Assembly: GCA_003194525.1 (NCBI GenBank)
Contig: NBIV01000007.1
Location: 1-64,000, forward strand
Reading direction: 5' to 3'
DNA: 64,000 nucleotides
DNA from: Gracilariopsis chorda
Taxonomy: Eukaryota; Rhodophyta; Florideophyceae; Gracilariales; Gracilariaceae
The number at the start of each line of letters is the position of its first letter. Position 1 is the stretch's first letter. A model generated the notes under the pieces. It did not search any database. It saw nothing but the letters and a program-made list of their open reading frames with translations, and was not told where the DNA came from. A program made the translations under genes and the position numbers. This document shows positions 8,237 through 33,975 of the stretch, piece after piece.

Positions 8237-8653
8237 TCAACGACCTCCAACCAAAACCAGATCGCCAACTTGAATCTTCTGTATCTTCTTCTCGACAATA
8301 TTTTGCTTGCGTCTGAGCGCAGAACGCTCCGCTTTGGGGTTAGATGCTGCTAAAGCTTCGACTGCTCTGAATGTGTCCGTAGAATTCGTCTTTCTAGTAA
8401 CCACGCCATTCTCCTTCTTCTGAGATAACACTGCGCCACGGGAAACACTGGAAGCGTCGGTCTCCACAATGAAAGGCTTCTCAAAGTCTGGAAACGATGA
8501 CAATGGGGGCTCTGTCAGCTTCTTCCTCACACTTTGAAAGGCATCAAGCATCTCATCCGTCCATGTTAGAGTCTTTGTCCCAGATGTAGCACTGTGAAGA
8601 GCTGAAGATGTCTCTGCAAAGCCTCTGATGAATCGGCGATAGTACCCTGCCAA
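8237..8653 (-). pseudogene. gypsy RNase H fragment joined to an integrase-like tail
   Basis: The frame starts with LRSFLGLAGYYRRFIRGFAE, the connection typical of the RT-RNase H boundary, then reads the RNase H start (FIVETDASSVSRGAVLSQ). After about 80 residues it switches to KKIQKIQVGDLVLV, which resembles the GDLVLV element near the end of gypsy integrases. The simplest reading is an internal deletion removing most of RNase H and integrase. The frame differs from the upstream RT frame by a single-base shift near 8670. Confidence 0.6.
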
Positions 8654-8667
8654 TCCAAGAAATGACC

Positions 8668-9504
8668 TTAGCTCTGTTTAGTTCTAGGGATCGGGGCGTC
8701 CTGTATCTTCTCAATGTTTGAATAGTCCACAGATACCCCACTGGAATCAATGACATGTCCAAGAAGAGGTATTCCCGGGAGTGCAAAGAAATACTTTGAC
8801 AACTTAAGCTCAAGGCCGTGCTTACTAATGCGTTCCAGCACTCCCTTCAGATGAACAGTATGCTTTTCCAGGCTCTTAGAGAATATAAAAACGTCATCAA
8901 TATAGACTCTCACAAACGGCAGATATCTGAGAACATGGTCCATCATCCGCTGAAAGGTAGGGGGAGTATTCATTAGACTAAAAGGCATGACTTCGAACAT
9001 GCAATTCCCATACCTGCGAACAAAAGTGGTCATCTCTTTGGATTCTTCAGAAATTCTCACTTGCCAGTATCCAGAAAACAGATCGAGCGTAGTGAACATG
9101 CAACAACCGCCAAGTTCGTCAAAGATTTCCTCCATTCGAGGCAGCGGCCAGTGATCGGCTTTCATGACTCTATTGAGTTCTCGGTAGACCACACAGAACC
9201 TTAGAGATCCATCTTTCTTAGAGGCTATGACCACTGGGAACGACCAGGCTGACGAAGAGGGGGTAATAATACCGGCTTCAAGTAGGAGTTCTATTTCCTT
9301 TCGAATGAAGTCATTGTGCTTCGGGGATATTCTTCTTTCCCGGAAATAGATTGGCTTATCAACGATGAGCTGGAAGGAATGTGGGACGGGGACACCGGCA
9401 GGGCGCAGATCTGTTAGTAACCATGCGATTACATCAGCTTCTTTCAGGCATGTGCTCATCTCTTTCTTTTCTTTCTCTGATACATGAGAGAGCTTTGAGA
9501 ACAA
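8668..9504 (-). pseudogene. gypsy reverse transcriptase
   Basis: Clear Ty3/gypsy RT. Landmarks are SAWSFPVVIASKKDGSLRFC, LFSGYWQVRISEES, the template motif FSLMNTPPTFQRMMD, and the catalytic VYIDDVFIFSK, followed by LLGHVIDSSGVSVD. By family it copies the element RNA. It is out of phase with the upstream protease frame (stop codons between 9549 and 9504) and with the RNase H frame downstream, so pol is broken in at least two places unless frameshifting is programmed. Confidence 0.85.
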
Positions 9505-9548
9505 AAACTCATCATGCTGATCCTCAGTGGTGATTTACAACTCTGGTA

Positions 9549-11396
9549 TCATGCCATTACTTTGGTTTGAGTATTACCTGTCAGAGCGACGACCAGTTCA
9601 TCATCCTCCTCGGAATCGCTCTCATCACAAGCAACGTCGGAGTCAGACGTAATGTCGTCGCTATCCGTGTCACCTTCATCCCCTTCAGATACTTCAACGC
9701 GAACATAGTCAAACACAAGTGTCACTTTCTTGCCAGCTATCTTCATCTTAACTTGTTGATTACCAAGGTCCAGGCAGACCTGAAGCGTCTCAAGTGTGGG
9801 ACACCCAACATCAATATCGAATGAAGGCCCTTCGATTACGAGGAAGTCTAATGGAGTTGAAACGCCTACGAACGAAATGGGCACATCATGAAGTATACCC
9901 TTCCATACAGCGCTTGTTCCATTAGCAACCGTTATCTTCTTTGAGGTAGGTTCGGGCTCCAACGATAGTTTCATGACCAGCTTAGTAGACATGAGGTTAG
10001 GGACAGCACCACAATCAAGCAAAGCTTCAGTTTCAGTTCCATATATCCTTACAGGAACCGCTTTCAGACGTGTAGGCTGTCTGCCCACTGGACCAACAAA
10101 AGAGCGCCGGACATTGCTTTTTCGGCTTATGAACTTTCGAATCTCTTTCTTAGCGTCATCGGCGTCCCCACGGATTAATTGCTCAAACTTGAGCACAGAT
10201 GAGGCATTAGCCAGCTCCGTGAGAACATTATAATTGCTTGCATCATCCTGTATGCTCTCTTTCCTAGACTTTCTCTGTTTTTGTTTCTTTTGGTTCTGTT
10301 CATGACCCTTTGGGCGTGGGATTCTCTCTTCATAGCCAGGTGGATTCAACAAGGAAGGGATAGGCGCTCTGCCATCTGAACGGCGCTGCTTTGGGAGCGC
10401 ATCACCATCGCCACTTCTCTTGGTCGTAGCGACGACTTCGGCACTCTGGAGGTTCTCAGTCACGATGGAAACGGTATCAGACCTCTTCAGTGCGCCGGAA
10501 GAAGAATCTCTCTGTTCCTCTCAGTTTTCCGACACCTTTCGAGTCTCTTCGGGCCTGATACGTCTCCTACAAGCAATCTCAGAGTGCCCAAGCTTTCCAC
10601 ACCTAGCACATCTCGTATCACGGTGTGGGTTGGCATCACACTGAGACGCGTAGTGACCGGGCTTCCTACAGTAGGCGCATGTTTTCTCGTAATCTCTGCG
10701 CTCCGCCTGTGACTTCTTAACCATGAGAGTAAGCTCTGCAAACTGTTTGGATAATTTATCAACCTTGGACTCCAAACCCTGGTGGGAAGAATTATCCAAT
10801 GGCGTTTGGTTTTGGACAATACGCTTCGGTGGGCCCATGAATGGAACATGCGACCCTATCGCTTTGTTGGCAGCATCGAAGGCTTTCACTTGAAACTTCA
10901 ACTCTTCATAACCCTCTGCACCACGAAAGACGATAAACTGAGCTAAATCAGCGTATTCCATCACCGCTTTTCTTAACAGGCCGAATTTTGCCTTACAATT
11001 GAATCCAGCTTTCTGGAGGAGGTTGTCTATATGACTCAAGGAACCAACCAAATCCCCATAGTCCAGTTTAGCCGATATTGCCAGGTGAGTATCCTCTTCA
11101 GGTTCTTCGATTTTTCCAAAGCGATTGATAAAAGCTTGTTTTACGGATTGATAATCTTTTGCTTCTTCGGAGAGGGAACCATTAATGGCGTAAGTATCAT
11201 AATAAAACTCGAAAGCTTTCTTATCTAGAAAGCCAAGAAGCTCGAGCGCCATATCGTCTTCGGTCTTTCCTCACATAGCAACATTCTCAAAGTAGAAGAA
11301 AAACATCACAACGTCTACAGACAGTCCATCGAAAGAAGTGAGTGTAGGGCTAAAATCAGAAGAATGCCCTCCTCGAGAGTACCATGTGGGCGCCAT
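9549..11396 (-). pseudogene. gypsy gag-protease frame with two in-frame UGA codons
   Basis: One minus-strand frame runs from an ATG at 11396 to the UGA at 9549, interrupted only by UGA at 11273-11271 and 10523-10521. Gag contains two adjacent CCHC knuckles (CAYCRKPGHYASQC and CARCGKLGHSEIAC). Downstream is an aspartic protease with ALLDCGAVPN in place of the usual D-[TS]-G-A, so the active-site Thr/Ser is Cys; this may inactivate it. Both UGAs could derive from CGA by C-to-T change, which suits decay. Regulated readthrough of the second UGA between gag and protease cannot be excluded. Confidence 0.7.
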
Positions 11397-16845: not shown

Positions 16846-17476
16846 TTAAACCATATTCTTAAACCTCTTTAGCAGATGGGTATTGTTTTCATGTAAAAAT
16901 TCCACAAAATCATCATTATGCAGATCTCGGGCTCTTTTGATATGCATTGAGCTCTTTGCAAGATACGTTGCTAGTTTGACACGATCATCAAATTCGTCCG
17001 TTTGCTTCACTTCTTCAGACTTCTGTGGCCGTCCATTCTTGTCACGCTCTATGCCAAGATGCTCACGCAAAATTGCCGTCTGGTCTTCTAAAATCTTATT
17101 CGATTGAACCACTCTTTATGACATTTCGCTAAGATACTTATAGCTTCCACTGTTTCGTGTCCCAGATTTTCACCTTCGCTCCACCGCAGCCTGAGTCTGT
17201 TGTTAAATCCCTAGGGAACCCTCTTCAATACCTTCTTCATATTTTTTGATAAGCTTCGAGGTGGTTGAGAGCAGATCGTTCGCCTCGTTTGCCGTACCGA
17301 TGCGCCATACGCAATAAAAAGAGATAAGCCCGTTTTGAATCGACAGTCAGGTCACCTTTCAGGGTCATCCGTAGAAAGTTGCAAATGATACTTGGATCGT
17401 TCTGCCCTGGCTCAGACGAGTTAGCCCTTGATATAATAGCCATCTTATTGACCCCGTTGTACTGATTTTTGAACAC
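16846..17476 (-). CDS. Hypothetical minus-strand exons
   Basis: Two compact frames, 17476-17237 (79 codons) and 17112-16846 (88 codons), have ordinary protein-like composition. The first contains NDPSIICNFLRMTLKGD and DSKRAYLFLLRMAHRYGKRG; the second is charged, with DFDDRVKLATYLAKSS-like helices. Multiple stops of all types lie between them (17120-17236), so an intron or decay separates them. No family recognised. Confidence 0.3.
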
Positions 17477-17777
17477 AGAAGCACTACGATCGCATATGTC
17501 GGTGTTCTCGTTATGCTAGTTTGGCATTCAAAAGGCAAAGAATTAAAATGAAAGAATGACAACTCTTCAAACCCAATTTTGAATGAATCAAATTTCTGAA
17601 AATAATTCCGTACATAGCACAGAGCTAGTTTGCTTGGGACAACAGACTAGCAGTATACTACACATTTCCCAGTTTCTCTGGAGGTAAAACTAGTGCCAGA
17701 CTCCACTAATACCTAACTTCTCAGGTGCACGTGGAATCCAAATCTTACTGGTCCTAAGCGAGTGCCTCTTCAAATAG

Positions 17778-17812
17778 CAAAATAGAATAGATAGAATAGA
17801 TAGAATAGATAC
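17778..17812. repeat. Microsatellite, 9-bp unit
   Basis: ATAGAATAG is repeated about four times just before the transposase gene. It could sit near the left edge of the 18-33 kb element, but I found no matching terminal repeat. Confidence 0.8.
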
Positions 17813-18035
17813 ATAGCGTTTACATAACCAAATAGCTTTGGCTTTCTATCACCCGTTGCTCGACCTGCTCCCTGCATCGCATGCTCTACCCCACGCCCTA
17901 CGAAAAGATGCTCTGCATCACGTGCACCACCTCATCTACGTGCGCCATAATATTACGCTTCCCGATATCCCACTCCGCCACCACCCTCCCTTCTCTGTTT
18001 CCAAGCATCCCGTTCTCCGTTCTCCTTCCCCCGCC

Positions 18036-20999
18036 ATGATACCCTGTTGCCATCCCCGTTGCACTTTCTATGGCCGCACCGCGTTCTCTCTCCACAGTCA
18101 CCAACGCAGGTGCCCTCATCGACTCACCCCCGACAAACGTCCTTCCTCCTCCGCCAACGGTCCCGTCCAGTTCCCTCCAAGGACCAAGCGACGAAAATCC
18201 GTTCCAAACCTCTCCACCATTCCTCCTCCCACTCCCTCACACTGCCCCTCCAACAACGTCCCCCTCGCCGAAGATGAACCCTCTCACATCCAACAGGCCT
18301 CCTTTTCCCTCCAAACACAAGGCTCACACCACATGGCAAGTCATGCCCTCTGTTCAGTCTCCTCCTCAAACCCACCTCTCCATACGTTGTCCCAATCCCC
18401 CTCCCCTCTCCTCAACAACCCCCATCTCGAGCAACTCGTCCTCTGCATCTCTTCCGTCGATTCCTCTTTTAGCACATGCAAAGCCGACGAACTCATCTCC
18501 CTTCTCAACCACCCAGACTTCTCCAAGTCATACTTCCAGAAACCCATCTCCTCCGCAAAGCAGTGCCTCGCACTCCAAGAACACCTCGTTAAGGGAAGTA
18601 TCAACTCCACCGGCTTCCTCCATCTCAAACTCACCGACGAGCACAACTCCTTCTCCGCAACTCTCTTCCAAAAACGCGCCACAGACGTCCTGAAGCAACA
18701 ACTCGCTCTCACACACTTCAACAACACCTTCTTCCAACCCGTCTCCCAATCTTCCCCTTCCTCCTCTTCCACCCCCGCCTTCGCCCATCCTATGGCGGCA
18801 GCCTTTGGAAACAAAGTCGTTCCTGCCTTCAAACAAGTCATCATGCAGTGCCACATCAATGAAATCGTCTGGCACACCCCCGAAACAACCGGTATGGAAT
18901 CTTTCGTCGATCTCATCCAGTTATACTCCGATAGGGTCACCTCCTTACTCAAGAGCTCCTCCATCAACTCATATCCCCTTCAAATCACCTTTCCCAACTT
19001 CGCAGACACATTCTGCCGAAAGTGTATCTCCGAAAACCTCACCCTCCTCGGATACCTCCCAACCTCCTTCTCCCCCTCTTCCTCCCCAGACCACGCAGAC
19101 TTCATCCCACATTCGTCCTCTAGCATCTCACGCGAAACAAGAATGGACCTCATTCAGCGCGCCATCCCTGCAATCCTCAACCCACTCCTCTCTTCCGCCC
19201 TCCTCGGTTTCTCATTCCGTGACGCCCACGGTGTACTCCGCCACTGCCACCCCATCCTCTCCAGCTACTGCGCAGACATCCCAGAGGCAAAGGACATCCT
19301 CGCCATCTCTCACGGAACACGACCACATCACCCCTGCCCCAGATGTACCGTCCCCCACGAACACCTCTCCCTCAACACAAACCCCATCCAGTTCCGCACA
19401 CAATCCCAGACTCGAAACAAACGCAGAGAACACGCCGCTCTCCTTCGCCAGTCCGACAAAACCCAACTCGCCTGCAAGCCAAAAGTCGCTCGCACCAAAA
19501 AGGTACAAGCAACCAGAGCCCTCCAGTCCCTCTCCCTCGCAAAGTATCCCTCTCTCTTCAAATCTCTTCAAACGCCATCTTCAACATCACTCCCCTTCTC
19601 TCCTCTTACTACATCTTCGCCTTGGAACCCCTTCACAACTTCCACCTCGGCGTCTCAAAGCTCATCAAAGCCATCGCCATCGAATGACTCAGCTCCGAAT
19701 CACTCTTCACCGCGGTCAGCCCCAACAACACCAAAACGTTCCTTCCATTCCATCCGCACCTCAATCCTCAAACACTCCAACTCCATCCTCGCCGCCATCG
19801 AAAAGGACTCCCCTGCACCCGGCCTTCACATCGACGTCTCCACAACCGACAACTCCCAAGCCCTCAACGGCTTCTTCACCACAGAAGGCTTACGAGGAAT
19901 GCTGGATGCAAAGGAGTACCGCACCCTCGACATGGTCTTCGCCTTCATCGGCGCCTTCTTCGACAAATGCTGCAAAGAAATTGACTCCTCCTCCATCACT
20001 TCTGTCTTCACCAAGTACACAGACCTCCTTCTCTCCGCTATGCCATACAACTCGTCCCCTGAATGGACAGACGCATCCATCCTATCTCTCGAAAAACACA
20101 TCAGATCCTTCAAAGTCACAGCCGCATCCATTCTCGGACCGTACCACTCCTCCCACCTCGGCACCCTCAAGTTCCATCTCCTGTACCACATCGTCGAATA
20201 CATACGCCAATACGGGGGTCTCCACTTCAACGACGCAGGCATCTTCGAGCACGCCCACGTCCTCTTCAAATCACATTACTCCACAACTTCCAAGCGAAAA
20301 GCCACCGCCCATACAGAAACCATCCGTGCTATTGACCGCTCCAATCTCTTCAAAGACTGGAATCCCTTTTCCGCAGACCCTTCCATATCCTCCCATGCTC
20401 GACCTCAAACTCAACCACAACCACGCAAACCCCCCTTCGTACGTGACGGAAAACATCTTTCCTTCTACGACATCTTCACAGCCGCAAAGTACCTTGCATC
20501 CACCCCCAACGCAAGTCCAAAATTTCTTCAAGAACTCTTCCACTCAGACACGCTCTTCATCATCTCACAACTAGGTCCCACCACACTTTATTCCTTCGTC
20601 TCCCTTTCCATCGAATATCTCCAGCTAAATTCCTCACCCAACAACCTCCGTCAAACTCGTCTCACCTTCGTCAACTCCGCATAGGTCGTCGGCAGTTACA
20701 TCCAAACAATACACAATTACAACCAAGAACGAAACGAACTCGTCCTCCAAGAACCCTCCGTCCCTCTCCTCCAGCGCATCTTCGCCGTTTCATCATTTCC
20801 ACATTCCAGATCACCAAAGTTCTCCCATACCTTTGTTGCAGGAACCAACTCCTCCTCTCCATTCACACCCACTGTATGGGTCTCCAAGCTCACTGCCCTA
20901 GCTCGCTTCAAACTACCTTCCCCCTCTTCAAGCTCTTCCACCCCCATTACAAAGGAATTCGCTTTCGTACAATTCCTTGAACTCTTACCACCGCGCTGA
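18036..20999 (+). CDS. Plavaka/KDZ-like DNA transposase
   Basis: The start is the ATG at 18036, just ahead of an N-terminal C2H2 finger (CCHPRCTFYGRTAFSLHSH, then RRC) typical of Plavaka-type transposases; the frame is open further upstream but without ATG. Family landmarks follow in order: GVLRHCHPILSSYCADIPEA near residue 405, HPCPRCTVPHEHL near 432, and LKFHLLYHIVEYIRQYGG near 711. The stretch 19571-19745 reads correctly only in another frame (YIFALEPLHNFHLGVSK), and that frame has a UGA at 19685, so the copy is shifted or mis-assembled there. An in-frame UAG at 20682 is followed by 104 coherent codons (EFAFVQFLELLPP near the end) before UGA at 20997. By family it cuts and pastes a TIR element. 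The coding strand is pyrimidine-rich. Confidence 0.78.
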
Positions 21000-21239
21000 G
21001 ATGTCGATATCACACTCAACTGCGTCTGCCTTCGGTGGTCAACCGATGACGAGCGGGACCACACCACCAATCCAGTTCCCATCTCCAAACCTCCCACCGA
21101 CGACAACGTATCTCCTTAGTTCGGCCTCATTCCTTCCACCTCCATTCGAGAAAACTACCCCGCCCCGCCATTCACTCCTCTCCTCGTCTTCACTGGCGCT
21201 TCCATCGTTTCTACATCAACCGATTCTATCGTGACAATT

Positions 21240-23713
21240 CTTCAAAGCCTTACGCCCCACAATCTACAACACATCAGTAAACCACCCGTTCCACCAGTAA
21301 CACTATTCTTCTTCAACTTGTTCTTCATAACCTCCCAGACCTTCCTCCCACTGCGCCTCGACATGATCCGTCGCCTCACCTCTCCCAACATCTCGACTCT
21401 CTTTCACCAACCTCTTCATCAACACTTCTTCTGGCCGACACGCAGCAACATAACAGTCCAGCACCCCTCCCAGCCGTTTTGTCATATGTTCCAAAAAGTA
21501 TTCATCCTTCACGGCCAAGTATATCCTCCGCTTCGAAGGTATCCACAGCGCTACCGTCACTTCTCTATCCCCATTGCCAGCTATACAACGCGGGTCACCC
21601 TCATTGCAACCTTCATTCTCCAGTTCTTCATGATGTAGCTCTCTCACCCTCTCCCATGCCACACCAAGCATATTCTCTACCGCGAGCGGAAGATACTCAC
21701 CGTACAACGTAGAAAATACCAACTTTCGTCTTCTTCCACGCCCCACATCTGTGTCCATTGCCGTCAAAACACATCCGATCCACGCATCCAAACGAGCCAA
21801 ATGCATGACTGTCCCATCAACGTACTCCATCTTTCCCTCCCTTTCCGTTCCCACCTCATATCCCATGAATTCTTCCGAAACTTCCACCGCAGCCCCGTTC
21901 TTGAAGTACGTGTCCCCTTCACTAAACTCTCTCAGCCGCCCAGGAACCTGACTTCCAGAATACGTAAGATCTCCGATTGTTTTCATCATCCAAGAACATA
22001 ACCTACCACTCCTCGCCTCCCCATCCCCCATGAACTTCGTCTTTACTTCCTCTAACTGCTTCTTCAATTCAATGTTTAGCTCCGTCCCCTCTCACGGTCT
22101 CAGACGTCTGGCTATCAAGTCATATCCAAGCAACGAAAACATTTTGTCCCGTGCCGCACGTTTCCGAACCCCAATCACATCACTCAACTTCTGCTTCATA
22201 CGTTGCCTCAAACACCTGTCCGCAACAAACTCCCGCACGTATTGATCCTTCCTACCCGCTTCACGAATCGACTCCCATCTCTCGCACTCAATCTCAACGC
22301 CAACCAAGTACTTCAATAGTTCATTACTTCCTCCACACGAGGAAGGCGTGTACGACCTCATCTCAGACGCAATCTCATCCAGGTACAATCTCCTTGCCTT
22401 CCACAACCAACACACTCCCCTCTTTTCCCTTCGCCCATACTTCGCATCGATTCGTCCAGTTCCTTTCCCCACCATCCAAAGTAAAAACAAAGCTCCGATA
22501 CCTCCACCTTTGCATAGTACAACAACCTATCATATACTACCCTGGTAAACCCATAAAAACCCTCTTGCACATCGACCACATACTTCCTACGCCCTCGCAA
22601 TTCCTTTTCAACTTCAGATCCCTTTTTCTCCCCTCATCTCACCTTAATCCCTTCCCGTAAGCTATCTATCAGCAAATTCTTCGCGCTCATCTCTGCTCGC
22701 ATCCTCTTCAGTTCCTCTTGCGTCAGCTTCAGCGACATCTTTAGGCTTCTGTGGTCCCCTTTGATCTGCCCGAGTTCTGCCTTCAACATATTGACCATCT
22801 CAACTAATGAAGTCGAGATATCACACCAATGTCGTCATTCCCTGCATCTCCCAAAATATTGACAGGCAGCCGTCACTCCTCAGCAGGCTCGCTTTGCGAC
22901 CGATGAACACTTCGTTTCCTCTCTGGCATTCCTTCCGCAGTCCGCGGCGTTATGCTTCCTTTCTCACTTTCCAAGTCTTGAGCCATTTGCACCTTTCGCG
23001 CCCGTACCGGGATGCTCGTACGTTCTCCACTTTTCGATGCTTCCTATATTCCATCCGTCGCTCTGACCACTTCTTCCACTTCTCGCCTTTTCTTTTAAAT
23101 CAGAGCGGCATCCCACTCCTTCCTTTATTCTCTCTCTCGTCCAACTCCCCTTCACAATGTGATCCTTTTCGTCCCCATCACTCTCTACCAAAGGGACATT
23201 TACCTCTCTTCCATATTGATTTCCCCTTGGTGCTCCACCTCTCTTCAGCGCAACTGCCTCTTCCATTTGTTTCCTTTCCAGCATTTCTTCATCTTTATTT
23301 CGGTCTTCGTCCCGCGCAATTTCTTTCATCCCTCCCTGATCTGGTACCTCTTCTCTTCTCCTAGCAACCGACCCTTTCTTACCCTCCACCCCACCACCAG
23401 ACCCAGGCATAGATCACTGTCCCCGAACCGAATCTCTCCTGCGTGCTACATGTGCATGGGCATCAGCCTTCAAATTCTCACTCGTCGTGCGCTCACTCGT
23501 CGTGCGCTCGGATCTGACGTTCTTTGCCCCACCTCTCTCCCCTCTCTTCGAAGCACCTTCTCTTGGCCTCCTCCCCAATAATCTGCTCCTGGGAACCCAT
23601 GATTTCGCTTTCGTTCCACTCGCGGTTTGCTCCTCAATAGCCTTTCGCCGCGTCTTAGGCGCACTCGCCGCACCACCCCTTGCCGGGCCTCGCTTTTTTC
23701 CCTTCGGTGCCAT
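21240..23713 (-). CDS. Unidentified coiled-coil gene with micro-introns
   Basis: Minus-strand, purine-rich frames can be linked through very short GT-AG introns. The likely start is ATG at 23713 (MAPKGKKRGPARGG, a basic region). A coiled-coil exon starts at 22802 (MVNMLKAELGQIKGD, LTQEELKRMRAEMSAKN). A 21-nt intron at 22642-22622 (donor GTGAGA) removes a UGA and keeps phase; a 26-nt intron inside 22510-22485 restores the next phase. A second coil (ELNIELKKQLEEVKTKF) is at about 22080. In-frame UGAs at 23416, 22966 and 22094 and UAGs at 21305 and 21266 remain unexplained or may lie in introns. No known domain. Its position between the transposase and the methyltransferase makes it a candidate element gene. 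Confidence 0.45.
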
Positions 23714-23974
23714 TCTTGGAGTCAAACCTCTTGCGCAAGTGGCTAATGACGCTCTGGGATGGCGCATGACGTGTCTTGTCCGAGAAAATCTCGCCACCCA
23801 GTGCGCACAAAAATCTTTGTTCTTTGTGAATTCTTGAGAATACAATCCTCCGTGGTACCGAAAATGGACGTTTCTGTGTCACATCTATATCTCTTTGTAT
23901 CTTCTATCCTTACTGAAAAGTGATTTTATCCTAAGATAGGACTACACATCCGTTCAAATTATAAACGTCGCCCT

Positions 23975-26900
23975 TTAGCCAAGCTGTGGACAAAGGTTTA
24001 TAACAACAAACTAATCGATGAGTATCGTTCCATCCTCCACATTCAAATGGGTTTGCCAGTCATAAAAATCACCGTATCCGGCGAAGAGTTCCTCTCCTTG
24101 CTCTATGTTGGCTGTCGCCTCCATCTTAATAAGTTTCTAGTCCGTTATTCCCACTGGTGTTCGTCCCACTCCCGGTGTTCGTTTCAGTCGCATATTAGCC
24201 TGTCTTTTTTTCACGAGGCCATCCACCATGGCATCTAACTGTTTACCCCCTTCCACGTATTTTTGGTCGTTGAAATACCCCGCAATACAAAAAGGGGCAG
24301 GAACCACCCATAAAATGGGGTTTGCTTGTTTTCCATGCCAATTCGTCAGCTGTTTTTGATGCGGAAGTGATTGGAACTGTTGACCGTAGACTTCTATCTC
24401 CACCGCATACTTCCGGAAGCGATCCTTTGTAACACCCATGACTCCCTCCCCGTAGGTCTTGTGCACTTCTTTCCGATTTGAAAGGTCATGATAAACCAAA
24501 TTCCTGTAGAAATAGCACACTACCTCGCCTCCGGCAATTCGACGAGTTGCAAAAACTCCAACACCAGCCTTTTCGTGACGAATAGTAGACTAGCCCACTC
24601 TCAACCCATATTGCACAGCCCCCATTGCCAACAGAGACTTCATGTTCTCCAGATTCATTCTTCCCTGCAGCTCCCTCGACCATCCATCCATAGCTTTCTT
24701 CCTTCCCAACTTCCCTAGAATTTCATTTTGCCACAAAGTGGAGAAAAAGTCGACAAGGTGTGGGGGAATAATTTGGCACTGTGGAAATCCATCGACAGCT
24801 CTCCATAACACGGTGTGCCTATTTCTTCCCATTGGGAATGCAGAGGAAACACAATGGGCCATCTTTCGAAGCTCCTGGCTCTTCTCAATATCCGTGTGTC
24901 CTTCCCGTATTATATAAGCGAGGCGAACAATAGCGGCACGCCTGGCGTGTTCAAAGCAAGCTTTGTCTGGTTCACACCCCACAAACTTCCGATGCTTGGG
25001 CAGTTCCATGCCCGCCATCGCTGTCGAGAACGTTCCGGCAAACATGTCGACCGCAAGGTCTCCTGGCTGACTGAACCTGCTAATCAGCTCTTTCAACAGT
25101 GCCCTACACTTCTGTTCCGGTCGCACCCTCTTCCTCGTATACTTCCCATCCGGGGTTTTCGCAGACCACATGAGCATCTCACTATTTGACATCGGCGGCA
25201 CCTGATCTATGATTGCATGATACGCTGGGTATCGTGAAGCAACATAGTTTAAGTTCTAATAGTTGACCATCCGGTGCTGTTGTGCATATGGAACTCCAGA
25301 ACGAACAGCATGTACAGCGTATTCTGTCCTCTGGTGCAACCGGAAACGTCTTCTCCCAACGTTACCCGTCGTATTAACTAAAGACCGTACGAAATGGAGG
25401 GGCTGTTCGTCGACAACAAAGGAGTCACGCATCGTATCAGAGTCATCCATGTAGGTAACTTTCCGTAGCACATCCCGCCACAACGGTACCTGATCCCATG
25501 AGCAGAACTGTATAATATGTCCACCAGGGCGTAGAAGCTTTGACGACCTCCTCGCTGACCTGCTCATGCCCTTCTCTGTCAGAATATCGTGTTCACTGTT
25601 CTCCAAACGACGCTCAGAACGAGTCCCATATGGCGGGTGGGAAGGCAGGAAGTGTACCCTTCCTTCAATAGATACCTCGCTTTCGTCAGACTTGTTGTCG
25701 TCAACTTCGATGGGATTTTCGAAATTGCAATGTGGAGATGGAGGTTGCAGGACATCTCCTTCTCACAATACTTGTAAGCTATCACATCATCCAAAGTCGT
25801 AGGGTACGGTGGTGCACGAATCCCCGTGCCTTCGACATCATACGATAAGTTCTGCGAAAAAGCTGTTGTCTGCAGTCCTTCAGTGGCCTTTTGTGCAGTA
25901 ACACCACGTTCTGCCGTACCACGTTCCGCATCCTATACCATCTCTATCTCTTCCAATTCCTCCAACTCACCCTGATCACAACCTCCCACATGCTCAGCAT
26001 GTTCGTTCCCACCACCAGCCGTACCAGTTTCTACCGGCTCCATAATGATGTCAACGTCTTCTGTAGGCTTCGGTTTCACAGGTTGATGTACTTTGACATT
26101 GCTTCCATGCAATGAAATGAGCGTCAGAGGCTTTATGGCCTCTTGAACCGTATTGACAAGAGATTCACTAAAGTTTTCAAACCGCAGAGGAAAAAGTCTC
26201 GTTCTCGTGACGATCAACCTTTTGAGGGCATCCCATTTGCTGGGAGCAGAGATGACGAACAGTTTCTCTTGTACCACCACATTAGAAAGGTCACCAAGGT
26301 ATTTTTTGGCACAAAAACGAAGCGCTGTATCCACTGGGTCCAGCAGATTCCATGCCCATTTGGTAACGTTTTCTTCTACTGTGGTGACGTTCTTCTCCTC
26401 CACAAACTGTTTGGAACAATCTTTGTGTTGGAAGCCCATGGAGCGAGCATTGTGCGATATCGGTGAAGACTACACTGATATAGTCGAGTCAAATGTAAGG
26501 CAAGATCATAACCTCAACGTTTGGAAACCCGAGGAATTGGGCAAAACAATCCCAAGCCCTGGTCACCAGCTGCACACCATACCCGACTCTCTGACTCTGG
26601 GTCTTGTCGGACAAACTCACTTTCGAGAAATTCTTAGCTGCCATGCCCCGTTTCCTCTTCCTACCAATTCCTTTCTTATCCACGGCATTCTGTTGCACCA
26701 TGGACAACCCAATGACCATTTCAAAGTCGGTGCAAAGATCCGTGTGGAAAGCGGAAGATTTCTTCGTTGCTCCCAGAACACGGGAATTGCAAAAGACAGA
26801 TACCAACACGTTACGGGGAATTCCTTTAAGCCCTTCCCTTTGACAATAAACCTTTCAAACGTCCCTTACACGCCTGTCTTCTTCACGGTCCTTTACGTCC

Positions 26901-27169
26901 ACCACTCTTGCCATAAGATAGATTTGACGTCGAAGGCCTCTGAAAGACATGTTATGGAGCTCGGAGTCCAAATACGAGATTTAATCCGGTCCGATGAGAG
27001 TGAGAAACATTTTCTTGGCAGAGTCATGAACGTTGCGACTTTGTACCGCGAACTCCACAAAGACGGTGTGCTTCAAACTTCTCGGCTCATCCACATTTTG
27101 CCTCGTCGCTGCGTAGTCATCACGAACTGCAAGATAAGCATCAATAAGCTCTTCTCCAGTTCCGTGCAT
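23975..27169 (-). CDS. Beta-class DNA amino-methyltransferase fused to a SET domain
   Basis: A five-exon model keeps one frame: 27169-27009, 26939-26870, 26851-26513, 26469-25767 and 25704-23975, with introns of 69, 18, 43 and 62 nt, all GT-AG. The protein is about 990 residues. The first ~420 are unassigned. Then come catalytic motif IV (LPSHPPYGTR, 25639-25625), LLRPGGHIIQFCSW, and motif I (LAVDMFAGTFSTAMAG, about 25056), the IV-then-I order of beta-class N6-adenine/N4-cytosine methyltransferases of bacterial type. Next is a SET domain (GVGVFATRRIAGGEVV at 24568-24521; EATANIEQGEELFAGYG at about 24107). UAG occurs in frame at 25935, 25258, 24592, 24139 and 24013; UAA follows at 23977. There is no in-frame UGA or UAA inside the spliced model. 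Predicted role: DNA base methylation plus protein lysine methylation in the nucleus (inferred). Confidence 0.75.
26852..26869 (-). other. Candidate 18-nt intron in the methyltransferase-SET gene
   Basis: The minus strand reads GTAAGGGACGTTTGAAAG. It starts with a consensus donor, ends in AG, contains an in-frame UGA, and its removal leaves the long frame intact on both sides (EEDRR joined to VYCQREGLK). Confidence 0.6.
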
Positions 27170-27211
27170 CTTGAATGAACCCGTTTCCTTCGGATTATGT
27201 TTCTCTTCGTT

Positions 27212-27365
27212 TTGGGTCGAGGACCGTGGTCCGAGGTGTCATGGTGCTCCATCGCGAACACGATGGAGCGCTAGGACGAGAAATTTTAATTAAAATTCAT
27301 GCCTGGCGCTCCACCGTGTTTGCAATGGAGCACCACGACACCTCGGACCATGGTCCTCGACCAAA
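27212..27365. repeat. Nested palindrome, about 150 bp, in a divergent intergenic region
   Basis: Two arms of about 70 bp pair around an AAATTTTAATTAAAATT centre (27281-27297) with roughly 85-90% identity. Each arm contains its own smaller inverted repeats: GGACC-GT-GGTCC near 27221 and GCTCCATCG-CGAACA-CGATGGAGC at 27246-27269. It fills the space between the start of the methyltransferase-SET gene (-) and that of the ParB-like gene (+). It may be an operator or partition-like site, a small foldback/MITE insertion, or both. Confidence 0.9.
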
Positions 27366-27508
27366 CAATTATCATTTTTTTCTGCAATGCTAGTAATTGG
27401 GAGGGGAATTGCAGGGATGCTACTTTGACGACAATGGATGTCATGAAACGTCTTGAAAACGATATATAGTGCTTACGTCCATCTCTTTGGAACCAAGCAT
27501 ACGTGATC

Positions 27509-30500
27509 ATGGGAGCATTGGACTTCAGCGGATGCCAAGAAAACGCAAGCGCGACCTTTGCAGTACTCAGCCAGGATTCCACTGGGAATAAGATAAATAC
27601 GCCATCACGGAAACGGACTCCGAAGAAGCCTGTTTCGCCGAAGAGACGTGTTATCGACATGCCGACCACGCAAGGCAAAGCGAAGAGCCGGGGCGCCACC
27701 CGAACTGCCAGCCTCCCTGAGCCATCAATTGGAGGCGATACGGGTCAGGTGCTTAAGGGAGATGCGGAGGTCAATCTGTTCGTACGAGTTGGGAGTAGTG
27801 ATGCGAAGGTGAAGGTAGGAGAGGCAAAATTGCGCGGTGCAGGGGTTGCTGGGGGGCCGGGGACGAGACTCTGTCGTTCTCTACACAACCATCCCCTCTC
27901 CTCTACGCAGAGACCTGGAGAGGACTTGGTGGTTATCTTTAAGACAAATATTTCCTCACACCAAGATGGGAAGTACCCTTTTTTTGGGGGTCCAGAGGAA
28001 CCGCCCGCAACTTTGAAGCGGATGGTTTCAGCGGGTTTATATGCATGGGACACTGCGATGATGAGTGTAAAAAATGAAGGCGGAGAGGGGAGTGAGCCGG
28101 TTCCACCGCAGTCAGGAGCAAATTTGAAGACTGTCCACAGAAGTACAGCTTCCAGGACCACTGCAAGACAAGTCAAGCACCTTACCGCTGTTGCTGGTAC
28201 ACCATCAAACATTTTGGTGACCAAAGCGCCAGTAAAGAGCCTTGAGTGCGGTGGAGAGGCTCCGGTGAAAACCCGTCAGAGCTGTGGAGGAAGATCAGGT
28301 GCTCTCGCGGGCGGCTCTGGAACCCGAGTAGGCTTTGAAGTTGGAGCAAACTCCGATGATGACGTCATAGAGGTGCCTGTACTCTCCAGGAACGATCTTG
28401 ATCCGGAGGAGAGATTTTTATATGATGACGGTGAGGCTGTTCCTTCGAAAGGGGTGGATCACAGTTTGGGGGTCTTAGACATCAATCGAGATGATTATGT
28501 CCAGCACAATTGCGTAATTGATATCCACAACATTCGATTTCCGAAGAACATGGTTCGTTCGAAAAATGACAAACATCTTCGAGATACTTCGAACAAACTG
28601 AGGAAATTCGGATGGCTCCCTTCTCTTGGGTCGATTGCGGTGGCGCGGTTGGAGGATGTGCCGGTTCGTGACGCTATTGATGCGAGTGGGCGTTTCATTG
28701 TTCCTGTGGTTTTGGTGGACGGCTTCCATCGAGTGAGTGTTCTACTGGACCTCGAGCTGGATGGTGCGATATGGGCACGGATTACTGCTGGTTTGAACGT
28801 CACGCTTTGGGAACGGAACGACGGCCAGAGAATGACATTGAATGAGGTTTTGTGGCTGGGGAAGACGTTGAATGATTTGAGCTCCAATGTCCTGGTGATG
28901 TCCTTCGCAGATATGATTCACACTGCTGTTTCGTTTATTCGTGAAGGCGTAGAGCAGGAGGGGTATGAGTTGTCAAAGCTTAAACCATGCCAACTTACGG
29001 GGGTGTTGTTGAGCAGTGAGAAGAAGGGGAAAGAAGGGAAGATACGTCATTTCAATCGCCATTCTGCTCTTGCTCTGAAGTTTGCGCGTAATCCCGGTAT
29101 GTTAGAGTTCTTCGATGTGGTGTGGCAGGAAACGCCTCAAATTGGAATCACTCATGTGTCTAGTGATATTCTGCTTGGAATGTCAGGGGATAAGTTTCGT
29201 TTTACTATCCCATGTCTACAGGCGCATGTTCAAGTGAGGTCGGCGGCCACTGTGAAGATGGGACCATTTGAGGATTTCCAAAAGTACTTCTTCGTCTGCG
29301 CTTCTAAAACGTATGACATTTGCAGTGAGCTGGGGAGTTCCATGAGGGAGAAAAAGAATGTACAGGAAGTGATGATTACCACGGTTACCATCGGCGATTC
29401 TGAGCAGACTGTGTCAAATTGTATCATATCTCGTCTGGAGAAGTGGTATATGAAAGGGAAACGCAGTTCACTGGAGTCCAGAATGAGTAATAAGGTGAGA
29501 GAGGTTCGTAGGACGTTGTCCAGCGCTTTGTCGGGCAAGCAGGGACAGGATGCTACTGCTGCTGCTCCCTCTGCGGCCGATGTGGACGTGATCGAGTTGC
29601 TTGGTCTGAATGAGCAAGCTGCTCAGGAGCCTCCAAACCCTGACCAGGAGCCTCGAAAAAGTAAGCGAATCTCAAAGAAGCGTAAAGTGGAGGTCCTGGA
29701 CGAAGATGAAGATGAAGAGTCAGTTGATCTTGACCCACCGGTGAGGAGGCAGAGACGATAGAATCGTAAGCCGACTGCACCTGGTGTGAAGCGACCTGGC
29801 TTTGGTATCTCGCAGGAGGTGGTGGAGGTGCTGCGTAGTATGGAGAGGGGAGATTTGAAGAGGTGGTTGACAGCACAGGAGATCATTGTGCTCGAGCCAA
29901 GCGAGGATGAAGCTTAGGAGGACTTTGTGGATGATGAACAAGACGAGGCAGAGGAGCAGCAAACCGCAGGCAGCTTTGACGATAAGAATCGTGACAAGCT
30001 TCCAGCTGGCTTAAGTACGCCGGGAGAGCTGGCTATGGGAGTGGACATGTCTTGGGTGGACCTGGTATACTCGTTGCCCAGTGAGTGCCCTGCAAGCGGA
30101 AATGCATTGAAGCATTCCAATCCGTGGATGCAGAGGATAAATCTGAGGAAGCACCATCGGGCGGATTGCCTATCACCTGATGAATTCCGAATGGTTCATC
30201 ATGCTGTGTACTGGCGTGCGTCACGCATCATGCAAAAAGAGATGGGTACTACGACACGTTCAGTGCTGGGCGTGAAGATGCCGTCATCAGAAACGGCATC
30301 GAATGAAGAGGAAGGGTTATGGATGGCCGCTTTTGAGAGAGAGGACTTGGCTCGTGTTTATTTTGTGAGGAAGAGAGTGGAGCTGTCGGAGAGAGGGTTT
30401 TGTGTGCTGGAGAATTTCGGGACAGATGAAGGCATGGCGAGTGAGGCTTCGAAGAGGGGACTGCAAATGGACGAAGATGTGATAGGAGAACTGATGGACT

Positions 30501-31353
30501 TTTTCGAACGCGACTTTGTTTCGCAACCGGATCTCACGAACGAAGCGAATCGTGTTTTCTGGAATATGATCATCAATGGGGGAGGGTTAAAGGATGTTAA
30601 GAATGGTATCAAGGCGGTGGGGCGTTTCATCACGACCAAACGAGGGATTGCGGACAGAATTGAGGAGCTTGAAAACGTTGCAGTTCTTGCTCGAAAGAGA
30701 GCCATGTTGGATGCAAGGCTCAGTCAGATTGCAGCACCTCTCGGATTGTATGAGGGTGGAACGACGTATGCCCTCACACGGGTGGCCGTATCCTTTGTAC
30801 TGGAGAGCATTGTCCGAGGCAGGTGCTACACACGGATTTCAGGGGTTTGACGGAGAATGACAGGATGAGAAATGTGAACCCGGGGTATGTTGCAATGGCA
30901 TCGGGACCGGATGCGTTCATGATTTGGGTTTGTGAACGGTCACATACTCTAAAAATGACACGGGGTAACTTGAAAGAGCCTTCGGCTTCTATGATGGTTC
31001 TGAAGTTCAGAGCTCCACCGTTTTCTGTGTTCATTGGAATAGGGGATGTATTTCATGCTTAGGGTGGGTTCAATGATGCAATAGCGAAAGGCTATTGCAT
31101 GCGATACCATATATACTTTGTACCTGAGGGATACAATCTCCCGGATGCGGTGCATAGGCAAAGCGGTTTTCTCCCTCCCTTTTCTAATGATGAAGAGGAG
31201 CGTGGCGAATTATGTGAGGTGGGAGGAAGGGAAGAGAAGCGGGGAGATGAAGCTGACGATAGAGTTGTAGTTATGCAAGAAGCCGAAGGTAAGAACCCGT
31301 CGGATGAGGAGCACGATGAGAATATACCAAAAACCAGCGGAAATGAACACTGA
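27509..31353 (+). CDS. ParB-like domain protein fused to a 2OG/Fe(II) dioxygenase
   Basis: ATG at 27509. The first 330 residues are basic and low-complexity. A ParB/Srx-like domain lies at about residues 335-430 (VIDIHNIRFP, LRKFGWLPSLGSIAV, VLVDGFHRVSVLLDLELDG), followed by a helical region. A nuclear-localisation-like cluster (RKSKRISKKRKVEV) is near 29665. The same frame continues through UAG at 29759 and 29915 into a dioxygenase: ELSERGFCVLENF, then after a phase change near 30800 the metal-binding LHTDF (His 30829, Asp 30835), GIGDVFHA (second His 31054), UAG at 31060, and the 2OG-binding Arg in CMRYHIYF (31102). A 26-nt GT-AG intron at 30797-30822, or a 20-nt one at 30788-30807, restores phase. 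UGA ends it at 31353. All three internal stops are UAG. Substrate unknown; DNA or protein demethylation/oxidation is inference from the neighbours. Confidence 0.72.
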
Positions 31354-32193
31354 TGGAGATTATGAACAGGAGCATGACGATGAAGGTGAAATGGTTGCTA
31401 AAACAGCAGAGGGTCTGATAGGTGAGGACGATGAAAGCGATTGATAAGATTGATAATGATAAGTAAACTAGCAATGTACGTTTGTTAAATCTGATGATTG
31501 TTTTTTGATCTTTATAATGAACGTTTATAGTGAATGTTTATAGTGAATGGAACAGGTTTACTACGATGGGGACTACTTTTTATGCGGCTTCATTCGAATG
31601 ATGCGTAATAATGAAGGGATGATGTCTACAAAAATTTCGCTTTGTTATATTCCATAAAGAAAGGTTTACAAGTATGAGAAGAAACTTGATATGGGTGTAT
31701 TGGAGGGTAGAATGAAGGGGCAGCTCATATGAAACACGAATGGATTTAAAATTGAGTATGGGATTATGTATGAGAATTGAGGGTGATTGTACGGATGTGA
31801 AGGATCCCGTTGTTATAGCCAAATACCGCAATTGTCCATTCTGTTGATATAGAAAGTACTGTTTCTTTTCATACATGAATGCATTGTGGCGTGCTTGATG
31901 TATGAAGAAGAGTGAAGAGGGTGAAGGCATTATCGTGTAGAGGTTCAAAATATTTTTTTGTGTGCTGGGAAGACAAGGGGTGAGCAAATGAGAAGATGAT
32001 GAGCTGTGCATTTAAGCAGTGACAAATTTGGTTCAAGTGAAGAGGTGGGACATTCATTATTGACTTTTGAAAATTCATTCACGACTCTTGAACATTCATT
32101 CACGACTCTTGAACATTCATGTCATTTGAGAACATCCACACGCACCATGACTACTATTCGCAATTTTCGGTCAGTGAGCTTGGGGTTGGGACG
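31354..32193. other. Spacer without recognised gene
   Basis: AT-richer DNA with no coherent frame on either strand. It holds a short direct repeat (GTTTATAGTGAAT twice at 31522-31548) and the 21-bp repeat listed below. Confidence 0.5.
32073..32114. repeat. 21-bp direct repeat x 2 upstream of a small gene
   Basis: ATTCATTCACGACTCTTGAAC occurs twice in tandem, followed by a partial third copy, 80 bp before the ATG at 32194. It may be a binding site for the small gene downstream. Confidence 0.85.
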
Positions 32194-32808
32194 ATGATGA
32201 GAGGGGATGGTGGGGAGGGAGGTGCCGGCGAGGGTGGTCGAGGAGGAGGGGTAGGCGCAGGTGGAGGGAGACGAATGGATGGGTTCTAGCGCGATGTGAA
32301 GGAACTATTAAAGAGCGCTGGCGGGGGGCTTACGGAGCTTTTGGATGAGGGCATTGAGGAGGTTGTCGTGGAGTTGGGAGGGATGGTTCTGAGTGCGTCG
32401 GAGGAAGGTGTGCCGATGGGTGCTGTGGCTGAGTTGCACTGGAGAGTGAGGGAGGCTGGGGTGTGGGCAGAGCAGCACGTCGATAGCGTTGTAACGTGTG
32501 TGGGAGAGGAGCTGGGGAGGCTGTGGAAGGAGAATGAGGAGTTGCGAGGACGGATTATGGGGTTTGGAAAGCGGTTTTTACTGGTACACACGGCTGTGCA
32601 TCTAGTCGAGGATATGCGGAACAAGATGTATGGAGGTGGAGGGGAAGGTGGGGTGGGAGGTGCTGTCGGGAGTGGGTCTCCGGTTACTCCTGGAGGTAGA
32701 GGGGGCGTGAAAAGGAGGCTAGAGGAGAAGGACGAAGAAGGATTGGAGGTTAAGACTCGTTTGAAGAGGAGGCATGGAAATAGAGAAGAGGGAGAAGAAG
32801 GATAGTGA
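32194..32808 (+). CDS. Small Gly-rich/helical protein, unidentified
   Basis: From ATG at 32194 the frame reads a Gly/Arg-rich N-terminus (GEGGRGGGVGAGGGRRMDG), meets UAG at 32287, then continues with a helical core (VKELLKSAGGGLTELLDEGI, LWKENEELRGRIMGFGKRF) and a basic Gly-rich tail (RLKRRHGNREEGEEG). It ends UAG-UGA at 32803-32808, so it is complete whether or not UAG is a stop there. Without the upstream UAG-containing part the first codon would be GTG at 32296. About 204 codons. The strand is purine-rich like the ParB-dioxygenase gene. No known domain; a leucine-rich coil could mediate dimerisation. Confidence 0.5.
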
Positions 32809-33003
32809 TGTTTAGGAGTGTCTTTGAGGTTGTTAGGACGACGGAATGGGTGGTATTAGAATCTGATGCGCGAAGCGTCGGGTGTGTGAGAACGGAGAGA
32901 GCTACCCAGATGAGTTCCTGAGGATGAGTTGGAAGTCAAACTAGGGCAGTATGAAGTTTGAAGTTCAAAAGATGGAAATAAAAATGTTAGTTTTGGTTGG
33001 GTG

Positions 33004-33058
33004 CTCGAAATGGCGCTGGCCGCGCAGCAGCCAGCGCCATTTCGAGATCTGTATCTAG
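33004..33058 (+). repeat. Perfect 17-bp hairpin followed by CTAG (Helitron-like 3' end)
   Basis: CTCGAAATGGCGCTGGC (33004-33020) pairs perfectly with 33030-33046 across a 9-base loop, and CTAG follows 8 bases later at 33055-33058. A hairpin about 10 nt before CTRR is the hallmark of Helitron 3' ends. No Rep/helicase gene is in the window. An alternative is a transcription terminator or subterminal hairpin of the 18-33 kb element. Confidence 0.7.
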
Positions 33059-33465
33059 CTTTTAGTGGAGAATGAACTTGCTCCAAACTTGAAACCAGCG
33101 ATGTGCAGTGCAGGTGAGGCAAGGCTCTGTAACATAAAGAAGTGAGCATTCCAAAAAATTTCTTTTCTTACTTGGCAAGCGCCAGAAACTAGCAGAATCT
33201 ATCATTTTCGTAGTATTTTTGAGCTTTTGCCTAAGAAACTTGCGATCTAGCACCTCTATCTAGCATTCCGAGAACATGGACGTAGAGGCCTCAACTTAGA
33301 GTCTACCTCATCCAATTTCCCAGCAAACCTGTGCTTCGAATCCACGTTCTTATCTTCAACTCTATTTCCAATAACCATCCAGTACGAATCCCGGATCACC
33401 TTAGCTTCCAACTTTCTTCGGTTTTTTTTTTTACCGATAGCATTATCGAATGCATTTTTCGCATG

Positions 33466-33975
33466 TTATTCGTCCTGTACATTTACTATAAGCCTCGCAA
33501 ATTCATTGATAATGAAGCTTGGATCATTGTGCTCGACTTGGCTATGCGCCGTGAGCGGAAATCCAGAGCCTGGGTCTTCCGCTTTGTAATCAAGAATAAG
33601 TTTCATAACCAATTTGTGGTCAGTAAAGTGAACCATATTATCAAACGCACGTACCTCAGGCAAAGTAGAAAGTGTAGCACGACGAATGACCTCGTCTTTT
33701 TTCGATTGAAGAAATGCTTTGAGTTCATCGTTGTTTGAAAGACAATCCCCGATACTGGTATCCTCGAAACTTTTAGTGGGAAAATATAACAATAATCCGG
33801 AAAGAAGTTCAGCGCGAATTCGATTACGAATGCGAAGCTTAAAAGACTTTGAAATCGCTCGCAAGTCTTTGACGGTCTTTTCCAAGACAAATGAGTATAA
33901 AAAGGGCATTCTCGTAGCTTCTAGAAAATTGGGTTCATTGTATGGAGAGATAGTAATCTCGGAGGACGAAGCCAA
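33466..33975 (-). CDS. Hypothetical protein exon
   Basis: A 169-codon frame ending in UAA. It is open from a TTG, so it is probably an exon or has its ATG downstream (MPFLYSFVLEKTVKDLRAIS). Content is globular, alternating helices and hydrophobics (AELLSGLLLYFPTKSFEDTS, HKLVMKLILDYKAEDPGSG). A NDPSFIINEFARLIVN stretch near the end faintly recalls NDPSIICNFLRMTL at 17370-17420, which flanks the element on the other side. No family recognised. Confidence 0.35.
   Translation of the reverse strand: MASSSEITISPYNEPNFLEATRMPFLYSFVLEKTVKDLRAISKSFKLRIRNRIRAELLSGLLLYFPTKSFEDTSIGDCLSNNDELKAFLQSKKDEVIRRATLSTLPEVRAFDNMVHFTDHKLVMKLILDYKAEDPGSGFPLTAHSQVEHNDPSFIINEFARLIVNVQDE

Follow-up and report, generated by a model that had tools for sequence, protein, structure and literature searches.

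Among the described systems closest to the element reported here are the TET+ Plavaka and TET/JBP transposons of fungi, in which a Plavaka-type transposase and a short target-site duplication (TSD; 2-3 bp) occur together with a captured epigenetic enzyme inside the element (Kojima 2025, PMC12730594). Our element shares these features. It lies in the genome of the red alga Gracilariopsis chorda, in the first 64,000 nucleotides of contig NBIV01000007.1 (C7:1-64000), the whole of which is called the window below. From the fungal transposons, as the accessible parts of that paper describe them, it differs in its red-algal host, in its termini, in giving no Tet_JBP match and in its cargo: a methyltransferase (MTase) joined to a SET domain, and a ParB-like protein joined to a part with a motif like that of 2-oxoglutarate (2OG)/Fe(II) dioxygenases.

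The same paper cites HarbingerS and MuDR elements of Phytophthora that have SET histone methyltransferase genes; SET is carried there on a DNA transposon, as here, but the transposase lineage differs. DNA methyltransferases are also encoded by mobile elements such as SymbioLINE-Dnmt, SymbioDIRS-Dnmt3 and the Dam-bearing DIRS (de Mendoza 2018, PMC5890265). These are retrotransposons with cytosine C5 or Dam-type enzymes, and the accessible text of that article mentions neither a SET fusion nor a ParB-like partner. The bdelloid protein N4CMT (Rodriguez 2022, PMC8885841) joins a bacterial permuted beta-type N6_N4_Mtase to a eukaryotic chromatin domain, as does the MTase described below. However, in the part of the paper available, N4CMT is a host gene that marks transposons with N4-methylcytosine and has a chromodomain, whereas the protein of our element is transposon-borne and combines SET with a DPPY motif. 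In the Plavaka giant repeats of Amoebidium (Sarre 2024, PMC11244446) many genes match distant lineages only, red algae among them. Those repeats form tandem clusters of up to 50 kb with many tyrosine recombinase genes, and no MTase-SET or ParB-like gene is mentioned in the accessible portion of that report. For the epigenetic-enzyme transposons (PMC12730594) and for the methyltransferase retrotransposons (PMC5890265) the available text suggests escape from silencing, or its manipulation.

An earlier note on the same DNA, made from the sequence alone, knew of no described element with this combination of genes. The open-access literature that we searched (Repbase and subscription papers lie outside it) agrees with this, as it yielded no element that combines a Plavaka transposase, an MTase-SET protein and a ParB-like/2OG-like fusion.

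Borders of the Element

We are practically certain that all the genes listed in this work sit inside one DNA transposon, which occupies positions 17497-33282 of the window (15,786 bp). Its ends are imperfect terminal inverted repeats (TIRs) of about 23 bp. The left repeat lies at 17497-17519 on the plus strand and follows the family sequence CGTCGGTGTTCTCG..ATGCTAG, with a different first base in the window copy; the right repeat lies at 33260-33282 on the minus strand (family sequence CTAGCATTCCGAGAACACCGACG), and the host genome searched (91.3 Mb in 1081 contigs) has at least 40 such right ends. The target duplication is the dinucleotide TA, with the left copy at 17495-17496 and the right copy at 33283-33284.

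DNA searches with each end of the window element covered the best 40 of 129 candidates for one end and the best 40 of 138 for the other. Flanks were read for 16 both-ended copies other than the window and C990 (the left end of C990 is the end of its contig). All 16 have the family left end, with variants, and a near-inverse right end. Thirteen of the 16 have matching dinucleotides on the two sides, as have 36 of 240 pairs of mismatched flanks (binomial p 7e-9 if this background rate is assumed); matching trinucleotides were found in none of the 16 copies.

The empty sites gave a direct view of the borders. When 17497-33282 and one TA were excised in silico, an open frame ran across the joined flanks. 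These flanks had 17 matches in the genome: 14 across the junction with 74-84% identity, two that are the flanks themselves and one that is the right flank of C990. Among these 14, the six that were read each have a single TA at the junction. The 14 junction-spanning matches are empty sites of a repeat that received the element; its host site (flanks 17297-17496 and 33285-33484) is an open reading frame of another repeat family. The earlier note had proposed one mobile unit at 18036..32808. The locus is the same and the true unit is slightly wider; its unity is borne out by the shared ends, the 2-bp TSD, the empty sites and the conserved gene order reported below, and the empty sites place the borders outside all genes, not between them.

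The right flank of C990 is 100% identical to that of the window, so that C990 probably represents this insertion on a different haplotig, and we dropped it as a second full-length copy. With the window and C990 included, 16 loci have both ends among the matches listed, 4.7 to 17.6 kb apart. All four of the searched gene parts (transposase, MTase, ParB-like part and the downstream domain of the ParB-like gene) lie between the paired ends in three of them (window, C990 and C46), the transposase alone is missing in six, and the rest lack more. A separate pair of ends, 20.7 kb apart and with a matching AT TSD, was seen at C10:534085-554735 (G000). The only listed gene match inside it is an MTase piece (C10:548875), and it possibly holds other cargo or nested insertions.

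Gene Content and Co-Occurrence

Two relatives from the same genome, C332:1-20000 and C204:126001-139277, were compared with the window. Together they are colinear with 17498-33284 in aligned blocks that are mostly 71-83% identical, with unaligned gaps that include 20.3-21.6 and 22.8-24.2 kb, and the C332/C204 subfamily is about 75% identical in DNA to the window element. Open frames are present in it for MTase-SET (1065 aa), the ParB-like/2OG-like fusion (1417 aa), a protein of coiled-coil type (748 aa), a further protein of 276 aa and a shortened transposase of 910 aa. The element genes are uninterrupted frames in intact copies.

In the window copy the same genes follow one another as remnants. 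The Plavaka transposase (PF18759) lies at 18036-20684 on the plus strand, within an open frame that runs from 17838 to an in-frame stop at 20684. It is followed on the minus strand by the remnant of the coiled-coil-type gene (748 aa in C332), at 21303-23845 with approximate outer limits; blastn aligned 21614-22838, and tblastn with the C332 protein found 648 codons with 59% amino acid identity and four stops. The MTase-SET gene at 24014-27184, also on the minus strand, is broken by seven in-frame stops and has HPPY in place of DPPY. On the plus strand the ParB-like/2OG-like gene at 27503-31456 has three stops and a frameshift near 30.8 kb, and the homologue of the C204 276-aa gene lies at 32296-32805 (blastn 32176-32806, 78% identity). 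The transposase and the 276-aa gene have one stop each in the aligned part. All five genes examined are thus broken, and the window locus is a dead copy of a DNA transposon of about 16 kb. The coiled-coil-type and 276-aa genes are the two that the earlier note had reported without a family. In addition, the C204 relative codes for a 417-aa protein with several hydrophobic segments, whose coding region is missing from the window copy.

How often do these genes travel together? Matches were grouped by position and element orientation with a linking distance of up to 8 kb, and the counts are lower bounds because the searches score best candidates only; haplotigs were not removed from them. The four searched parts occur together at 20 loci (the window and the probable haplotig C990 included), in the same order and orientation at 19 of them, C23 being different. 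Leaving out the window and C990, there are 18 such loci, some of which may be haplotigs of each other, and 17 have the order transposase - methyltransferase - ParB-like - downstream domain. The downstream domain occurs at 69 of at least 72 ParB-like loci, the MTase at 49 and the transposase at 22, and among at least 57 transposase loci the MTase is present at 41 and the ParB-like part at 22. When the 114 Pfam transposase matches were used there were 113 transposase loci, 71 with the MTase in element orientation and 36 with the downstream domain. At 22 loci the MTase and the downstream domain occur with no ParB-like match; these are at least in part more divergent relatives (about 30-41% identity).

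Co-location of the genes is far above chance. Flipping the transposase reduced the loci with transposase and MTase from 71 to 1, and flipping the MTase reduced those with MTase and ParB-like part from 49 to 0. The earlier note had considered that transposase copies might never occur together with the other genes; they do so at 71 of 113 loci for the MTase and at 20 loci for all four parts. Unrelated repeats, nested or adjacent, could in principle mimic a single element, and the window is indeed repeat-rich, with gypsy-like and LINE-like frames recognised by eye. The chance that such neighbours explain the locus is negligible, given borders that the empty sites put outside all genes, an order kept at 17 other loci and the collapse of the counts on flipping. 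We rejected it on the empty sites and the conserved order.

The Transposase

The transposase of the window scores 64.7 bits with profile PF18759 (E 1.1e-17), for which the cut-off is 26.3 bits. The 58 matches listed in the genome include this copy, and the others are 60-83% identical to it; open frames at other loci reach 1160 aa. The designation "Plavaka/KDZ-like" of the earlier note stands in its first half: PF18759 places the transposase in Plavaka, and KDZ (Zisupton) membership was rejected because of the 2-bp TSD, which is 8 bp in KDZ as far as the accessible text of PMC12730594 gives it, together with PF18759.

In the same text Plavaka is grouped with EnSpm/Transib (CMCT), and its TSD rule of 2 bp (PlavakaA) or 2-3 bp (PlavakaB) agrees with our element. 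The termini given there for PlavakaA and PlavakaB, TGT..ACA or CATCA..TGATG, were not matched. We have filed the element under neither, because its ends are CGTCGG..CCGACG. For the CMCT clade the available part of the paper describes two motifs, C(2)C and H(3-4)H, that lie between the second D and the last E. In the transposase translations we read the candidate motifs CPRC and HNFH by eye, and the second has a spacing of 2 versus 3-4 in the rule.

The Accessory Proteins

The earlier description of a beta-class methyltransferase joined to a SET domain held. In C332 a single frame of 1065 aa contains both parts (E 3.6e-18 for PF01555, 2.2e-4 for SET), and the motif order, DPPY (IV) before VDLFAGTFSTA (I), is that of the beta class. 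Pfam recognised part of N6_N4_Mtase in the window itself, at 24590-25201. Among 18 MTase homologues PF01555 was found in all and PF00856 also in 10. DPPY is present at 8 of 8 genome loci read, and all 15 aligned sequences, the query counted, keep DPP. DPPY suggests adenine N6 methylation, and N4-cytosine is also possible. The relatives with solved structures are DpnA, CcrM and MboIIA; SET proteins match weakly. These data support a predicted DNA writer that carries a protein-methyltransferase domain. With the MTase profile 14 loci score exactly 71.1 bits, and this identity suggests recent amplification of one subfamily. Six viral contigs of IMG/VR (L092-L097) show weak similarity (24-47%) to the MTase domain only.

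The ParB-like part and the downstream part form a single 1417-aa frame in C204. The former has a conserved block VVLVDG[YF]HR (motif VDG[YFG]HR) that resembles VDGFHR of Escherichia coli YbdM. In the latter the pattern HxD...H...R is complete in C204 and in two related proteins, P0019 and P0020; HxD is changed in L013 and the distal H in L033. P0019 and P0020 are 28-38% identical to the C204 protein. P0020 comes from the red alga Gracilaria domingensis and is the only homologue whose source is recorded; aligned with the ParB-like/2OG-like protein, it covers 43% of the query at 33% identity. This match suggests a red-algal host, and nothing supported a fungal one. Stop codons led us to drop rows L032 and L035 from alignment A2. 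In the whole genome PF02195 (ParB_N) and PF12851 (Tet_JBP) each had 0 matches at E<=1, and TET/JBP identity of the oxygenase-like part, which we considered, is thus unsupported. A sequence search of solved structures gave no support for ParB or 2OG.

Some weak viral resemblances raise the question whether the locus is a remnant of a DNA virus, or of a large virus-like element, that acquired a Plavaka transposase. A SET protein of PBCV-1 is among the weak matches, and the ParB-like frame weakly matches the SU10 major capsid protein, far under the cut-off (12.5 bits where 24.1 are required, E 0.11; best E 0.02). On the other side, the frames scanned contain no capsid, polymerase or packaging family above cut-off, the viral contigs gave only 6 weak MTase-domain matches, and P0019 had no match to phage sequences at E<=10. 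This origin is very improbable. We rejected it, the viral-contig matches being weak, the SU10_MCP match weak and below cut-off, and P0019 having no phage match at that threshold.

Selection was estimated as the ratio of nonsynonymous to synonymous substitution (dN/dS, Nei-Gojobori) for the C332/C204 subfamily against the window copy. The ratio is lowest in MTase-SET (0.18) and the ParB-like fusion (0.19), followed by the coiled-coil gene (0.26); the transposase has 0.32 and the 276-aa gene 0.35. The values are if anything pushed up, because the window copy has decayed. Synonymous divergence is 1.1-1.3 in the central genes and 0.54-0.65, about half, in the transposase and the 276-aa gene near the ends. 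The earlier note had supposed that such genes may mark or protect the element's own copies; the low ratios of the accessory genes (0.18-0.26) suggest that these genes did something useful for the element, the nature of which dN/dS does not specify.

Subterminal CTAG Clusters

The left subterminal region (17497-17856) and the right one (32953-33282) contain four CTAG each. No other of the 256 tetranucleotides is as enriched as CTAG in the terminal 350 or so bases of the two subfamilies; it has 18 occurrences against 1.5 expected from the body of the window element (12.3-fold), and its count was reached by 1 and 0 of 500 dinucleotide shuffles, respectively. Thirty right ends, which are mutually homologous, have a mean of 5.0 and a minimum of 4 CTAG per 330 bases, compared with 0.64 in the flanks.

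EnSpm/CACTA elements depend on a second DNA-binding protein that acts at their subterminal repeats, and Dam controls the timing of Tn10 excision after replication. By analogy, the accessory proteins might serve transposition itself: the coiled-coil and ParB-like proteins would assemble the ends, and the methylation state would control when excision follows replication. The CTAG clusters at both ends, the low dN/dS of the accessory genes and the EnSpm-like position of the Plavaka lineage (in the available text of PMC12730594) are consistent with this proposal. However, it leaves SET and the 2OG-like part unexplained, and the 6 of 16 both-ended loci that lack the transposase keep the MTase and ParB-like genes; such copies may be mobilised in trans. 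We regard a role in transposition as possible but rather doubtful.

Palindromes and Strand Asymmetry

Between the divergent MTase and ParB-like genes lies a central palindrome (27212-27365), with two 64-nt arms that are 89% complementary and a 26-nt spacer. Of 20 ParB-like loci read, the window included, 19 have a palindrome in roughly this position, and L021 has none. The C204 subfamily has two; the arms of one are 43 nt long and perfect, those of the other 47 nt long and at 94%. When the window is compared with the perfect C204 palindrome, seven positions differ alike in both arms, and the window arms disagree at 3 of 39. Within the window the motif GGWCCRTGGWCC, with up to 1 mismatch allowed, is confined to the central palindrome, in a number that chance could produce. 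A second palindrome near the right end (33004-33046, limits by eye) is the second-best inverted-repeat tile of the window and is partly kept in C204.

The GC skew of the element is V-shaped. Along the outermost 6 kb on the left it ranges from -0.42 to -0.55; it reaches zero near 27 kb, close to the conserved central palindrome, and is +0.42 to +0.45 at the right end (Spearman coefficient 0.92). In 38 other 1-kb pieces of the window, which served as control, the mean is -0.01 and the standard deviation 0.06; the first 8 kb, where a LINE-like frame gives 1-kb values of -0.08 to -0.38, were left out of this control. The trend is repeated in the C332/C204 subfamily and in 250-base samples of the divergent elements C37 (ten samples, 407.5 to 420.2 kb) and C320 (eight samples, one of them off the trend at -0.02). 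It is independent of the coding strand: the transposase on the plus strand has C3 0.53 and G3 0.11, and the coiled-coil gene on the minus strand G3 0.39 and C3 0.13. AT skew showed no consistent parallel. We know of no DNA transposon with such a V-shaped strand asymmetry, and a narrow search of the open-access literature for V-shaped transposon skew found no title on the subject.

Could the element have a replicon-like phase? In bacteria, methylation by Dam and CcrM times or licenses copying. In our element, the accessory proteins would then serve the copying and segregation of an excised form, the palindrome would be an origin or a parS-like site bound by the ParB-like protein, methylation would time or license copying, and the skew would be the footprint of outward replication. 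The V-shaped skew, seen also in C332/C204, C37 and C320 and independent of the coding strand, and the conserved palindrome near its turning point agree with this. But the frames scanned with Pfam contain no replication protein, the skew is a gradient and not a step, AT skew is inconsistent, and one of the eight C320 samples is off the trend. The ParB identity rests on a motif, and outward transcription or end-biased exposure of single strands could also yield the skew. Such a phase is unlikely, although the ParB-like motif, the palindrome and the skew leave the reading a small chance. Equally improbable, in our estimate, is a whole class of replicon-like transposons characterised by a central palindrome, divergent MTase-SET and ParB-like/oxygenase genes, a skew that turns there and CTAG as the methylase's own target. 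Were it real, such elements would fuse the writing of eukaryotic chromatin marks with a mark-and-segregate system of bacterial style.

Three neighbouring features were noted in passing. At C37:403500-405249 (L110, L111), just left of the C37 element, the GC skew is +0.5, and this stretch is possibly the left arm of an oppositely oriented neighbour copy (ParB-like match at C37:395741, minus strand). In the window, a 1435-aa open frame at 2042-6346 (+), which reads by eye as a LINE with endonuclease and reverse transcriptase, has negative GC skew. Gypsy-like reverse transcriptase/integrase frames lie at 54921-61482 (+) and 8240-11270 (-), the first of which ends in an apparent chromodomain (by eye).

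Proposed Role of the Accessory Module

As the best overall explanation we favour, with modest confidence, a Plavaka-type transposon that carries a self-marking, anti-silencing accessory module. Judged from the sequences, epigenetic self-marking or anti-silencing has about an even chance of being the main role of the module. An element of this kind, with its Plavaka-type (CMCT/EnSpm-like) transposase, moves between TIRs that begin with CGTCGG and generates 2-bp TSDs, presumably by cut-and-paste chemistry. The ParB-like protein, the transposase or both may recognise element DNA at the central palindrome and the subterminal CTAG clusters. Two kinds of mark would come from the MTase-SET protein, one on adenine (or N4-cytosine) in the DNA and one on lysine in the chromatin close by. 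Host marks might be removed or changed by the oxygenase-like part. Copies marked in this way would stay expressed and mobile.

Several observations weigh against this explanation or its parts. Three of the 16 copies whose flanks were read (C382, C134 and C286) have no 2-bp TSD and were counted as misses. No accessory gene of the three searched was found within the 8-kb linking distance at 37 of 113 Plavaka loci, and accessory-free Plavaka elements may be among them; three of the 37 (C628, C199 and C22) have a ParB-like match on the same strand 8.2-8.9 kb away, just past that distance. The SET match in C332, at 22.0 bits, is just below the Pfam cut-off of 22.4, and the dN/dS values were computed against decayed copies. 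For CTAG, single-base shuffles gave a weaker result (8 in the window ends, shuffle mean 2.4, largest of 2000 shuffles 10), the enrichment could reflect transposase binding alone, and homology between the two subfamilies, and among the 30 right ends, means that their shared anatomy is not independent evidence.

The ParB-like/2OG-like protein belongs to the same account. ParB and oxygenase models of Pfam, PHROGs and NCBIfam gave no match to it, only weak unrelated families, and its AlphaFold2 models are poor, with a mean predicted local distance difference test score (pLDDT) of 42 for the ParB-like and 33.5 for the 2OG-like part. Aligned by hhalign, the ParB-like part and YbdM share 12 columns (E 0.003, probability 9.9%); against P1-type ParB the value is E 0.22, compared with E 0.91 for an unrelated pair. 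This profile-profile test has little power, because a genuine ParB-annotated pair (YbdM and P1-type) reaches only E 0.046. Of the "ParB-like protein joined to a 2OG/Fe(II) dioxygenase" in the earlier note, the fusion is therefore confirmed by the C204 frame, and the domain names are carried by motifs with no profile match. Its terms "DNA binder" and "oxidative enzyme" were guesses at the level of motifs, to which neither the profiles nor the AlphaFold2 models lent support.

What would such an element mean for transposon biology? Transposons with one captured epigenetic enzyme are known; here a DNA methyltransferase and SET are combined in a single polypeptide, next to a second multi-domain protein. 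The V-shaped strand asymmetry is a separate puzzle. If CTAG and the palindrome are true targets, the sequence predicts the positions of the marks, and the element offers a case in which the possible self-marking of DNA and chromatin by selfish elements can be tested.

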